Shown piece by piece: positions 4,739 through 9,478 of a stretch of 64,000 bases of DNA. Below the pieces are notes generated by a model. The model did not search any database and was not told the origin of the DNA. It worked only from the letters and a program-made list of their open reading frames with translations. Numbering within the stretch: position 1 is the stretch's first letter; each line of letters begins with the position of its first letter. This stretch comes from Azotobacter salinestris (GTDB lineage: Bacteria; Pseudomonadota; Gammaproteobacteria; Pseudomonadales; Pseudomonadaceae). The DNA is taken from assembly GCF_009363155.1 (NCBI RefSeq), contig NZ_CP045302.1:4487001-4551000 (forward strand). Direction: 5' to 3'. The position numbers were made by a program, and so were the translations under genes.

Positions 4739-5636
<898 letters not shown>

Positions 5637-5640
<4 letters not shown>

Positions 5641-5965
5641 GGCTTGAAGCGGCGGTCGAACTCCGCCTGGGCAAAAAAATACGCCGACGCCTTGTGCAAG
5701 ATCTCGTTGGCCTGGCGCAGCTCACGCACCTCACGTTCCGGTGCCTTGATCCGCTCGCGTTCGCTGATGGTCTGGCCTTCGCGCTTTGCCATTGCCGCGC
5801 TCAGCCTGAGCGCACCCAGCGGCGCAGCGTTTCGGCCGTACAACCAATCTTGGCTGCAATTGAGCAGATCGCCGCCCACTCCAAGTCATGTCCGTCTTGA
5901 TGCTCCAGCACCAAACGAACCGCTCGCTCGCGGACTTCCGGGGAATACTTCGTTGCTGTCTTCAT
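5637..5965 (-). pseudogene. IS3-family transposase orfA, frameshifted
   Basis: HTH_Tnp_1/IS3 orfA remnant. Translation from the ATG at 5965 reads MKTATKYSPEVRERAVRLV and continues to [13 protein letters not shown], then meets a TGA. An extra T in GTGCGCTCAGGC and an extra A in GGCAAAGCG each shift the frame. After both shifts the normal sequence resumes as [29 protein letters not shown]-type residues up to the junction with orfB. An extra TTT in a T7 run (AYFFAQ) is in frame. So at least two indels break orfA in addition to the one in orfB. Confidence 0.82.
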
Positions 5966-6145
5966 GGCTCCATCCTCTCAAGAGTTGGAGCCTCCGGGAA
6001 AGCCGGGACGGTTCAGAGGGGCTTGGAAAGAAAACGAGCACGATACAGCCTAACGAAGATACATCACTTTGGTGTACCTAAACGCTGTCACACTCTGGGC
6101 TTCTGGCAGAAAATTCTTTAGAAAATCAACGAATTAGAGATTGGA

Positions 6146-6255
6146 GATGGCCCCACCAGCCACACCCCGGCACACAAGGTCACCGCTACGGCTGCTCCCT
6201 TCCGGGCCTGACCGGGTTCACGGCTGCTCGTTGCGGGGGGACCGGCAGGACCACC
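6146..6255 (-). ncRNA. ffs: 4.5S / SRP RNA
   Basis: RNA component of the signal recognition particle, which binds Ffh and targets membrane proteins cotranslationally. The minus strand contains the diagnostic domain IV hairpin GGTCAGGCCCGGAAGGGAGC followed by AGCC, close to the E. coli sequence with its GGAA tetraloop and asymmetric loop. The 5' end GGTGGTCC pairs with the 3' end GGGGCCATC to close the rod. The roughly 110-nt span is set by that pairing. Proximity to dnaX matches Pseudomonas gene order. Confidence 0.93.
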
Positions 6256-6288
6256 ATAACGAAACCCACCAGCTCGGTGGGTCGGATA

Positions 6289-6316
6289 ATTCTACTGGCT
6301 TACTCGCAATTTACAA
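6289..6316 (-). promoter_or_regulatory. Sigma-70-type promoter for ffs
   Basis: On the minus strand, a -35 TTGTAA (6316-6311) is followed by a 16-nt spacer and a -10 TAGAAT (6294-6289). This predicts a start near 6282, about 27 nt before the mature 4.5S 5' end. The leader contains a CCCACC-GAGCT-GGTGGG hairpin (about 6266-6282), consistent with a precursor trimmed by RNase P, as known for E. coli 4.5S RNA. Confidence 0.55.
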
Positions 6317-6402
6317 CTGTCACGTGCAAAGAAAACGTTTGGAGACAGTCAATTGCTGATATAAGCCTGCGCAAAAGCCTCTGGCTGGCCATCTGGCATC
6401 AG

Positions 6403-6429
6403 TGAACCGCCCCGGGTTTTCCGGAGACA
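6403..6429 (+). repeat. Orphan IS3-type terminal repeat
   Basis: TGAACCGCCCCGGGTTTTCC, continuing GGAGACA, closely resembles both ends of the IS3 element at 4700-6015 but has no transposase beside it. It is probably the footprint of a former or partially deleted copy. Confidence 0.5.
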
Positions 6430-6523
6430 GCAGGGGGCAGCGGTTGGTGAGTTTGGCGGCTGCCAATTTACCTGCTTCCCTGACTGTCAATCCTCGCTTC
6501 CCCAGGACTCTGCGAAGAACCAT

Positions 6524-6546
6524 AAAAAAGCCCTCCGAAGAGGGCT
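6524..6546 (-). terminator. Rho-independent terminator of the small-protein unit
   Basis: On the minus strand GCCCTC-TTCG-GAGGGC is followed by TTTTTT (6529-6524). It is a compact GC stem with a stable TTCG loop and a U-tract. It lies 36 nt past the stop of the 64-codon ORF, so it is the natural end of the transcript starting near 6970. Confidence 0.8.
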
Positions 6547-6581
6547 GGAGCAGATCGAGCAAAGAACAAAGCACGCACCTA

Positions 6582-6776
6582 CTAGAAAACCAGACCCTGC
6601 CCATCGAGTTGAAGTTCATATCGGGAAACAGGGAATTCTGCTAACAAGTTGCCGTTTTCAGGCGGAAAAGGAGGCTGCCGGGGAGGTGGGCTGGCATTGA
6701 TACAGCCAGATGATGTCGGGTCGGTGAAGCTTCCATCCTTTCCGCGAAATATAAAGAGCTGGGTGGCTGCCTTCAT
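6582..6776 (-). CDS. Hypothetical 64-residue protein, second ORF of a sigma-54-type unit
   Basis: Not recognised. Starts at the ATG at 6776, with GCGGAGC about 11 nt upstream. It opens MKAATQLFIFRGKDGSFTDP, then has a Pro-rich middle (PPPRQPPFPPENG) and ends with LDGQGLVF. No membrane segment or signal peptide is visible. It is supported mainly by position: 78 nt after the 28-residue membrane peptide on the same strand and 36 nt before a strong terminator. Composition does not clearly prove coding, and it could be an untranslated or degenerate 3' region. Confidence 0.35.
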   Translation of the reverse strand: MKAATQLFIFRGKDGSFTDPTSSGCINASPPPRQPPFPPENGNLLAEFPVSRYELQLDGQGLVF

Positions 6777-6792
6777 GATCGAAAGCTCCGCT

Positions 6793-6832
6793 CTGGCAGC
6801 GAGTCGGGGTGCAGACCCGGGACAGCTACCAG
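6793..6832 (-). other. Predicted RNA hairpin between the two small ORFs
   Basis: On the minus strand CTGGTAGC (6832-6825) pairs with GCTGCCAG (6800-6793), and an inner CGGGT-CTGC-ACCCCG stem forms with one bulge. There is no U-tract, so it is more likely a processing, stability or sRNA element than a terminator. Confidence 0.4.
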
Positions 6833-6854
6833 GAGCGCATTGGCCGATTCCGAG

Positions 6855-6941
6855 CTAGCGGCCCTTGTATGTGCCCTGCCAGATCACGCCGACAATGGAC
6901 ACCAGAAAAACGATTGACCAGAAAGCCCATTGAATACCCAT
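6855..6941 (-). CDS. 28-residue single-pass membrane peptide
   Basis: A short ORF with an excellent ribosome-binding site: GGAGGTAAATGCC precedes the ATG at 6941. The product begins MGIQWAFW, has one hydrophobic helix (FWSIVFLVSIVGVIW, residues 7-21), and ends in a basic QGTYKGR tail, giving an inner-membrane peptide with the C-terminus probably cytoplasmic. A sigma-54-type promoter lies 40-55 nt upstream and a terminator follows a second ORF. It resembles small accessory subunits in size but matches none I recognise (compare CydX in this window, which begins MWYFSW). Function unknown. Confidence 0.6.
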   Translation of the reverse strand: MGIQWAFWSIVFLVSIVGVIWQGTYKGR

Positions 6942-6979
6942 GGCATTTACCTCCAGAGGCAGCGGCGTTTACCTGTTTG

Positions 6980-6997
6980 AAGCAATAATCCTTCCAA
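6980..6997 (-). promoter_or_regulatory. Sigma-54 (RpoN) -24/-12 promoter
   Basis: The minus strand reads TTGGAAGGATTATTGCTT. The GG and GC elements have the 12-nt spacing required of -24/-12 promoters (consensus TTGGCACG-N4-TTGCW; here TTGGAAGG-ATTA-TTGCT). The predicted start is near 6970, leaving a 29-nt leader that contains the GGAGG of the 28-residue ORF. Confidence 0.65.
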
Positions 6998-7081
6998 CTG
7001 CCTGCCTTCCCGCACCGATCGCTCTATGACGCTACCTGGGCTGCGGCTTTGCACTTGGGGTGAGGTGGCCTCGGGCAGGGG

Positions 7082-7099
7082 TGTTTCATATTTGAAACA
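7082..7099. promoter_or_regulatory. Palindromic activator-type site 1 upstream of the sigma-54 promoter
   Basis: TGTTTCATATTTGAAACA contains perfect 7-nt arms (TGTTTCA/TGAAACA) with a 4-nt centre. It lies about 120 nt upstream of the predicted sigma-54 start, a normal position for an enhancer-binding-protein site. I cannot name the cognate regulator. Confidence 0.55.
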
Positions 7100-7123
7100 G
7101 TCGAGTGTCTCGGTGGACATGGG

Positions 7124-7141
7124 TGCTCCACATATGAGACA
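7124..7141 (-). promoter_or_regulatory. Activator-type site 2 upstream of the sigma-54 promoter
   Basis: The minus strand reads TGTCTCATATGTGGAGCA and matches site 1 at 14 of 18 positions. The centres are 42 nt apart, four helical turns, so both sites would face the same side of the DNA, as expected for cooperative enhancer-binding proteins. The rest of 6998-7402 holds no convincing gene. Confidence 0.5.
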
Positions 7142-7402
7142 TGTGGGTAGACAGATGGCTGCTCGGCACTTGCCGATGCACCTCTTCCGGGCTCGGGCGA
7201 TGCTCGAGATTGCGCCTGATCGCGCCGCGATAAAGCCTCGGGTCGGTTTGCGTCCTTTCACAAGTCCAAGCATTTCAGGCAAGGCCGAGATGCGCCTTGG
7301 GCTTGCCCCGAGTCCTGGCTGGTGTGCCTGCAGGGCGGATGCAATTTGCATTCTGCTCCGCTAGCATTGCCGCTCTCCGCTTGTTCAGCTGCGATGGTAT
7401 CG

Positions 7403-9478
7403 ATGAGTTATCAGGTTCTTGCACGTAAATGGCGTCCCCGCTCGTTCCGAGAAATGGTCGGCCAGACCCATGTGCTCAAGGCACTGATCAATGCCCTCGA
7501 CAGTCAGCGCCTGCACCATGCCTATCTGTTCACCGGCACCCGCGGGGTGGGCAAGACCACGATCGCGCGGATCATCGCCAAGTGCCTGAATTGCGAGACC
7601 GGCATCAGCTCTATCCCCTGCGGACAATGTTCGGTCTGCCGTGAAATCGACGAGGGGCGTTTCGTCGATCTCATCGAGGTCGATGCTGCCAGCCGCACCA
7701 AGGTGGAGGACACCCGCGAGCTGCTCGACAACGTGCAGTACGCGCCAAGCCGTGGACGCTTCAAGGTCTACCTGATCGACGAAGTGCACATGCTTTCCAG
7801 CCACTCGTTCAACGCGCTGCTGAAGACCCTCGAGGAGCCACCGCCTCACGTCAAGTTCCTGCTGGCGACCACCGATCCGCAGAAGCTGCCTGTCACCATC
7901 CTGTCTCGCTGTCTGCAGTTCGCTCTGAAGAGTATGCCGCCAGAGCGGGTGGTCGAGCACCTGACCCACGTGCTTGGCGCGGAAGGCATTCCCTTCGAGT
8001 CGGATGCCCTCTGGTTGCTCGGTCGTGCTGCCGACGGTTCGATGCGCGATGCCATGAGCCTGACCGATCAGGCCATCGCCTTCGGCGAGGGCAGGGTGCT
8101 CGCCGCCGATGTGCGAGCCATGCTCGGAACCCTCGATCACGGTCAGGTCTATGGTGTGCTGCAGGCGCTGCTGGAGGGCGATGCCCGGGCCATGCTCGAA
8201 GCGGTGCGCCAGTTGGCCGAGCAGGGGCCGGACTGGAGCGGTGTGCTGGCGGAGCTGCTCAACGTGCTGCATCGGGTGGCCATTGCCCAGGCGCTGCCGG
8301 AGGCGGTGGACAACGGCCAGGGCGACCGCGAGCGGGTGCTGGCCCTCGCCCAGGCGCTGCCGGCCGAAGATGTGCAATTCTATTACCAGATGGGCCTGAT
8401 CGGCCGTCGCGATCTGCCGCTGGCGCCGGACCCGCGCGGTGGTTTCGAGATGGTGCTGCTGCGCATGCTGGCGTTCCGTCCGGCGGATGTCGGCGGAGCG
8501 CCCGGCAGGCCGCTAAAGGATCAGGGAATCCGCTCGGCCACGGCTGATTCCCCATCCGATCCTGTGGCAGAGACTGACTCTGCACAGTCGCCTGCCGTCT
8601 CCGCGGCTGTATCGGGCGAAAGTTCGGCCATGGCTGCTCCGGCGTTTGCCGAACCGATCGAGCCTGTATCGCCGCCAGAGCCAAGGTTGCCTGCCGGAGC
8701 TCCCGATCTGCCATGGGAGGAGCCTTCGCAGGCTGCCGGCGCTCTCGTCTCGAAGTCGGCTGCGATGCTGGTCGGTGGCATGGCCACTGCGCCTGTGGCG
8801 GAGAAAACGGAGAGGGCTCCCGAAAGTGCCGTATCGGATCAGCCGAGTCCGCCGGCTCGAGCCTCCTTGGCGTGCGAGAGGTCAACGGCTCCTGCCGCCG
8901 ATCGCGCGCCGGAAAGGATGCCTGCGCCGGTCACGGGGGAAGAGCCTCCTCCGGCGGACGATGACTATTATGAAGTGGATGCCGAGGAGGTGGATGTCGA
9001 GGCCTACGCCTACCTCGATGCCTTTCCCGTCGAGGAGCCGCTTCCGGCGAAGCCGGAGCCCGAAGCCGAGCCCGCGGTAGCGCCGGCCACCGGCCTTGCG
9101 GCCGAATGGCTCGAACTTTTCCAGCGCCTGAGACTGGCCGGCATGACAGCCAACATCGCAGCCAACTGTACCCTGGTGAAGGCCGAAGGCGACCATTGGG
9201 TGCTGCATCTGGATCCGGCGCAGGCCGCACTGTTCAACAGTACCCAGCAGCGGCGCCTGAACGAGGCTTTGAACCAGCATCATGGGCGTACGCTCAAGCT
9301 GGACATCGAATTGCGCAAGCCGGAGCAGGAAACTCCAGCCCAGGCGGCGGCACGGCGAAGGGCCGAGCGCCAGCGCCAGGCCGAGGCGTCCATTCAGGAC
9401 GATCCCCTGATCCGGCAGTTGATTCAACAGTTCGCCGCGGTGATCCGCGACGGCACCATCGAACCCCTGAATACCTGA
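7403..9478 (+). CDS. dnaX: DNA polymerase III subunit tau (clamp loader)
   Basis: 691-residue clamp-loader ATPase that loads the beta clamp and couples polymerase to helicase. From the ATG at 7403 ([15 protein letters not shown], the family start) it shows Walker A GTRGVGKT at 45-52, a Zn-binding cysteine set at 61, 64, 73, 76 and 79, Walker B LIDEVHM at about 124-130, and sensor 1 [18 protein letters not shown]. The middle (about 370-560) is a long Pro/Ala/Glu-rich linker, and the C-terminus carries the tau-specific polymerase-binding domain. I see no A-AAA-AAG slippery heptamer, so gamma is not obviously made by the E. coli frameshift. Followed 10 nt later by ybaB. Confidence 0.97.

Follow-up and report, generated by a model that had tools for sequence, protein, structure and literature searches.

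Why would a bacterium spend an enhancer-dependent promoter on a membrane peptide of 28 residues? This question is raised by a short module on the minus strand of the 5.3-Mb Azotobacter salinestris genome, which we analyzed within a 64-kb stretch of DNA, hereafter the window (G000:C2:4487001-4551000), and compared with the genomes of A. chroococcum DSM 2286 (G001), A. beijerinckii DSM 378 (G002), and A. vinelandii CA (G003). The module has a sigma-54 -24/-12 promoter (TGGAAGGATTATTGCT, 6981..6996, minus strand) with a predicted transcription start near 6971. Words of equal quality (2 mismatches with the GG/GC intact) occur twice in the window when both strands are counted, and a terminator scan of 6000-7500 gave 2 sites against 1.3 (SD 1.2) in shuffled sequences. 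Because the promoter and terminator signals are weak taken alone, we tested their conservation. All four orthologues have TGGAAGGNTNNTTGCTT, with GG at -24, GC at -12, and 10-bp spacing between them; the element begins 54 to 64 nt upstream of the ATG in each species and places the predicted transcription start 29 to 39 nt upstream of it. We count the promoter as real because it is conserved in all four species. The clear conserved blocks of the four-way alignment are two dyads, the -24/-12 box, the Shine-Dalgarno sequence, and the ORF. An exact -24/-12 GG/GC promoter before a 28-residue ORF with a strong ribosome-binding site, as an earlier sequence-only reading of this DNA had proposed, is thereby confirmed.

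The 28-codon ORF (MGIQWAFWSIVFLVSIVGVIWQGTYKGR, 6855..6941, minus strand) is predicted from hydropathy to encode a single-span membrane peptide, and its reality as a gene is supported by orthologues and codon constraint. It is preceded by the Shine-Dalgarno sequence GGAGG (6950..6954, minus strand), 8 nt before the ATG at 6941, and this sequence reads CTCTGGAGG or CTCCGGAGG in all four Azotobacter species. When 57 genomes were searched with the peptide, all 4 Azotobacter genomes matched, with E values from 4e-10 to 3e-14 and 78-100% identity across 27-28 residues; the other 53 gave 7 weak matches (E 0.6 or more) and 46 gave none. Over their whole length the orthologous peptides are 75-79% identical. 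Across the 27 codons compared, each species pair differs at 11-22 nt with only 5-10 residue changes, and the six pairwise alignments hold zero stops and zero indels. Pairwise dN/dS values were 0.18, 0.26, 0.22, 0.49, 0.16, and 0.09 (range 0.09-0.49). In 5000 random substitution trials per species pair, a stop-free result with no more residue changes than observed came up 2, 590, 64, 841, 1, and 4 times, indicating codon-level constraint in four of the six pairs (1-64 of 5000 trials), with the other two (590 and 841) not significant alone. These comparisons suggest that the ORF is mostly under purifying selection. A search among relatives, the check proposed with the original reading, thus found the ORF, its Shine-Dalgarno sequence, the promoter, and the upstream palindromes kept in all four Azotobacter species.

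The region downstream of the peptide fared differently. A 64-codon ORF (6582..6776, minus strand) that had been counted as part of the unit was rejected as a gene. A. vinelandii lacks the start codon, the first 37 codons, and the stop; the remaining 27 codons coincide in frame with a section of a longer open frame in that species, but the aligned sequences differ 19/13/18 times by codon position, with indels of 1, 2, and 4 nt and hence no coding signal. The 64-codon ORF has no counterpart in A. chroococcum or A. beijerinckii. A terminator-like hairpin with a T run (AGCCCTC-TTCG-GAGGGCT, 6524..6546, minus strand) marks the probable 3' end in A. salinestris; the hairpin and T run proposed as a clean terminator are thus present, but the signal is not above shuffles alone and is found in A. 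vinelandii only, within an 86-nt stretch that is common to that species at 86% identity. Nothing 3' of the peptide stop matched in A. chroococcum or A. beijerinckii. The hairpin placed after the peptide ORF was not conserved or gave no signal, and the fold of the 447-nt transcript is ordinary (z -1.21; 10 of 100 shuffles as good). The claim that nothing expected of a regulated transcript is missing was overstated, and the suggestion of a dual-function RNA is not supported, as no sequence beyond the peptide stop is conserved across the four species.

The gene ffs lies at 6151-6247 of the window (minus strand, Rfam), and on the opposite side of the module are genes identified by inspection as dnaX, recR, cydBA, and a CRP/FNR-type regulator gene. 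ffs is also present in the stretches around the module in A. chroococcum and A. vinelandii. The A. beijerinckii module adjoins a gap-like gene, with its flanks replaced and the module itself intact, and ffs was not found in the 19-kb stretch around it. Because the module sits elsewhere in A. beijerinckii, the promoter and peptide form a heritable unit. We additionally observed that the orientation of ffs, which encodes 4.5S RNA, with respect to dnaX and the peptide is reversed in A. salinestris (window 6151-6247, minus) compared with A. vinelandii and A. chroococcum (L039 9453-9549 and L040 9694-9790, both plus). An ALIL pseudoknot lies at 5566-5682, in an element just past ffs that is presumably of the IS3 type.

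Upstream of the promoter are two 18-bp dyads on the minus strand. The distal one, UAS1 (TGTCTCATATGTGGAGCA, 7124..7141), was picked by eye from the alignment and is imperfect in all four species. The proximal one, UAS2 (TGTTTCAAATATGAAACA, 7082..7099), is a perfect TGTTTCA-N4-TGAAACA in A. salinestris and A. chroococcum, with 1 mismatch in A. vinelandii and 2 in A. beijerinckii, and the exact dyad occurs once in each of the first two genomes. The start-to-start distance between UAS1 and UAS2 is 42, 42, 43, and 43 bp, and the distance from the center of UAS2 to the -24 G is 95, 97, 75, and 95 bp (G000, G001, G002, and G003). Judged by these spacings the sites appear to be in helical phase: the difference of 20 bp corresponds to roughly two turns, which fits DNA looping. 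If up to 2 mismatches are allowed, the dyad is found at 4, 4, 6, and 4 sites (G000-G003) compared with 2, 2, 5, and 2 for the reversed control; a looser search gave 5, 2, 3, and 2 sites against 1, 1, 2, and 3, and a still looser pattern was near control level in G002. Because looser dyads approach the control level within Azotobacter, no wider regulon is shown.

We also considered whether the known sigma-54 activators of nitrogen fixation could act here. The patterns TGT-N10-ACA, GT(T/A)C-N6-GTAC, and TAC-N6-GTA, in the forms given for NifA and AnfA in PMC7294313 and for VnfA in PMC9542535, a paper that describes Cappable-seq of A. vinelandii, do not occur in the 330 bp upstream in any of the four species, and membership of the NifA, VnfA, or alpha-proteobacterial AnfA regulon was rejected on this ground. 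The loose A. vinelandii form of the AnfA site, C-N-GG-N3-GGTA, occurs once upstream, in A. chroococcum only and not in the window. NtrC-like and CbrB-like sites were likewise rejected; we found only isolated GTAC words, all in A. chroococcum.

The dyad itself provided the first lead to the kind of activator, because it matches a site in front of fapA. The exact dyad is present in 48 of 298 Pseudomonadaceae genomes, two of them Azotobacter, at 54 sites (2 in Azotobacter), compared with 2 of 298 genomes for the reversed dyad. We examined 28 loci among the 52 non-Azotobacter sites. At 11 of the 28, a sigma-54-like word scoring at least 13 of 16 follows 71-72 bp downstream of the dyad. At 10 of these 11 the next product is a similar secreted, fapA-like protein of about 150 residues, all 10 from one genus, presumably Pseudomonas, and at one the next gene is ammonium-transporter-like. 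The two of these proteins that we scanned both pass the NCBIfam FapA cut-offs, while a Pfam scan of the fapA-like proteins gave no match. The other 17 loci have no sigma-54 word at 71-72 bp, among them one (L102) with a FapA-like gene and the word at 129 bp. At the Pseudomonadaceae locus L127, the dyad is 72 bp upstream of a sigma-54-like word and an ammonium-transporter-like gene comes next, divergent from a long ORF that resembles a c-di-GMP enzyme (both by eye).

According to PMC9207406, the P. fluorescens fapA-E operon has an RpoN promoter and requires BrfA, and brfA, 1,326 bp in length, lies reversed downstream of fapF; BrfA is described as a c-di-GMP-sensing enhancer-binding protein in PMC13101488. 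We infer that BrfA binds the TGTTTCA-N4-TGAAACA dyad, and the site found before fapA is also present upstream of the Azotobacter peptide. The enhancer-binding protein at the position downstream of fapF in two of the genomes with the dyad before fapA (441 residues, 1,326 bp) was taken as BrfA. No BrfA orthologue was found in the four Azotobacter genomes, where the best match had 47% identity compared with 49% for a different enhancer-binding protein in a fap-bearing genome, and BrfA itself was rejected as the Azotobacter activator. The activator would instead recognize the same kind of site as that of fapA, yet not be a BrfA orthologue. Of 27 Pfam hits for enhancer-binding proteins in A. salinestris, 25 were compared with BrfA, and the most BrfA-like recognition helices were those of L149, L152, and L096, in a ranking that is incomplete because several ORFs are cut or out of frame C-terminally. 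These three candidates are weak leads. L096 adjoins an exaC-like gene, whose promoter carries TGTCAC/TGTTTC half-sites in a direct array in 4 of 5 loci aligned. L149 adjoins an acetoin-type operon with no such dyad within 17 kb. More generally, exaC-like aldehyde dehydrogenase promoters of Azotobacter (L025, L033, L026, and L099) have 11-bp-spaced TGTCAC/TGTTTC half-sites before a sigma-54-like promoter, with two copies in the A. salinestris genome.

The peptide belongs to a small family. Each Azotobacter genome encodes 1-3 further peptides of 26 residues, giving 2-4 family peptides per genome. All 11 chromosomal members have M1, F7, W8, and G18, and 10 of the 11 have W21. A profile of the 11 members recovers them and, in the four genomes, has no other match below E 0.01; relaxing the threshold to E 1 adds two weak matches in A. 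beijerinckii, of which the one we read, L053, is a phage-holin gene. This gene (G002:C133, Pfam Phage_holin_3_5) carries ADMPFWMLVLVSMAG and has FWMLVLV in common with the 26-residue peptide L015 of the same genome. It is conceivable that the peptides derive from a holin helix, the profile E of 0.675 being at chance level. Beyond Azotobacter, the profile gave 2 weak matches among 294 further genomes of the family at a threshold of E 0.01 and 2 among 368 further genomes of the class at a threshold of E 0.001, in a search from which peptides so short and so diverged could escape. Two of these four matches are embedded in frames of 327 and 130 codons; a third is a 28-codon frame that lies opposite a longer open frame and has no Met before its FW, and the fourth is a 39-codon frame with no Met. 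Likewise, neither L005, L006, L009, and L011, from the 7 weak outside matches to the peptide, nor L044, L045, L092, and L093 are small ORFs of the pattern. A pattern scan gave 12 matches in genome contigs, of which 3 were confirmed, all in Azotobacter, and 50 in viral contigs, of which none was confirmed.

One 25-residue member is carried in identical form by the A. chroococcum plasmid pAcX50e and by a plasmid of A. chroococcum strain HR1 (L156 513-587 and L157 3001-3075). It is 50% identical over 24 residues, and among 72,556 plasmids searched no match other than these two copies reached E 1 or less. Neither copy is listed in the gene table of PLSDB, itself incomplete. The pAcX50e copy lies some 0.5 kb upstream of an annotated transporter gene, and the HR1 copy lies between IS200/IS605 and IS4 transposase genes. 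In the 250 bp searched for each of the 7 chromosomal paralogues, sigma-54 words scored 12 of 16 at best, and none of the paralogues had the dyad, so enhancer control is not a family trait. Four paralogues (L012, L013, L015, and L017) share TGAATCGATT, which we take to resemble a LacI-type operator, 61-90 bp before the ATG. The plasmid copies have no sigma-54 word, dyad, or TGAATCGATT upstream. The claim that no known family explains the unit holds for the peptide, as neither it nor the family gave a match above cut-off in Pfam, NCBIfam, PHROGs, or the PDB; the weak matches were DUF6219 for 3 of 11 members (best E 0.12), another Pfam model for one member (E 0.023), and a best PHROG at E 0.071. 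The titles and opening lines of abstracts that we searched make no mention of this peptide. As far as these searches reach, this appears to be a family of 25-28-residue single-helix peptides found only on Azotobacter chromosomes and plasmids.

We weighed four other explanations, all of which we rank below an accessory or regulatory peptide. TisB, IbsC, and ShoB are type I toxins, and the size and hydrophobicity of the peptide, its multi-copy paralogues, and the plasmid copy among IS elements would suit a toxin of this kind that is silent until released under stress. This is the least improbable of the four, yet we consider it unlikely: the leader is short and the Shine-Dalgarno sequence strong, with the predicted start so near the ATG; a consensus scan of 6000-7500 found no sigma-70-type promoter on the plus strand; the transcript folds no better than shuffles; and the conserved Trp/Gly pattern speaks for a specific partner. 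The presence of cydBA and the CRP/FNR-type regulator gene about 4-8 kb away raised the alternative of a CydX-like accessory subunit of a respiratory oxidase, acting in respiratory protection. A single-span peptide does lie near cydBA in A. salinestris, A. chroococcum, and A. vinelandii. However, the CydX signature is MWYFxWILG, in a gene after cydB, and a different reading frame with this signature (MWYFSWILG...) already occupies that place; the peptide as CydX was rejected for this reason. As the A. beijerinckii peptide is located elsewhere and no Pfam or NCBIfam model matches the peptide, we regard a role as oxidase subunit as improbable.

A regulatory RNA as the main product, with the ORF incidental, would account for the stretch shared with A. 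vinelandii, terminator included, and for the two species pairs without significant codon constraint. Set against this are the constraint in the other four pairs, the ordinary fold, and the lack of anything common with A. chroococcum or A. beijerinckii 3' of the stop, and we give this explanation slightly less credence still. That a chance ORF simply stands beside a chance sigma-54 match might be argued from the second promoter word of equal quality in the window, but every element is conserved with near-fixed spacing in all four species; four-way conservation and codon constraint already contradict this explanation, to which we attach hardly any probability.

We consider it probable that the product is an accessory or regulatory membrane peptide under enhancer-dependent control. 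The promoter, paired sites, Shine-Dalgarno sequence, and peptide are all conserved in four species of one genus, which supports the proposal of an enhancer-dependent promoter for a 28-residue membrane peptide that stands on its own. In the mechanism we envisage, a sigma-54 enhancer-binding protein would switch on a dedicated small membrane peptide: activator dimers would bind the two 18-bp dyads, which are four helical turns apart, and reach RNA polymerase-sigma-54 at the -24/-12 element through a DNA loop; the resulting transcript would have a short leader, and the peptide would be translated strongly. By its binding sites, we infer that the activator has BrfA-like DNA specificity. The peptide would cross the inner membrane once and may serve as an accessory subunit or modulator by packing against a helix in some larger membrane protein, a proposal drawn from the conserved Trp/small-residue pattern (F7 W8, S/A15, G18, and mostly W21) of 12 short sequences. 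Because each genome has 2-4 peptides under different upstream regions, different signals may install different family members on a common or related target. A more specific scenario, which we offer tentatively as less probable than not, is that Azotobacter has its own peptide family under several regulatory elements, one member of which took over a sigma-54 enhancer of the amyloid/biofilm type, and that a lifestyle signal thereby installs the peptide on a membrane enzyme or transporter; by analogy with BrfA, this signal is possibly c-di-GMP. The conserved elements suggest that the peptide is made purposely under a specific signal in nitrogen-fixing Azotobacter. Genes so small are easily missed, as with both plasmid copies. 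In a model nitrogen fixer, the retention of a sigma-54 enhancer for a peptide of 28 residues offers a compact, testable example of small-protein function under signal control.

Among known products, the closest are small single-span bacterial membrane peptides such as CydX, KdpF, AcrZ, and MgtS, whose size and single hydrophobic helix are alike. By our searches the peptide does not appear to belong to their families: it has no family or PDB match, is restricted to the genus so far, and would be controlled by a paired sigma-54 enhancer. The NifA, VnfA, and AnfA promoters of Azotobacter resemble it in combining a sigma-54 promoter with upstream dyads, and differ in their motifs, which are absent here. 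The closest known control region is that of the BrfA-controlled fapABCDE operon of Pseudomonas, where a sigma-54 promoter likewise follows the dyad, at 71-72 bp (10 loci) compared with 75-97 bp here. The two differ in the -24 box, which is CGGCAC in the 10 fapA-type loci and TGGAAGG here, and in the target, which is an amyloid operon there and a 28-residue peptide in Azotobacter.
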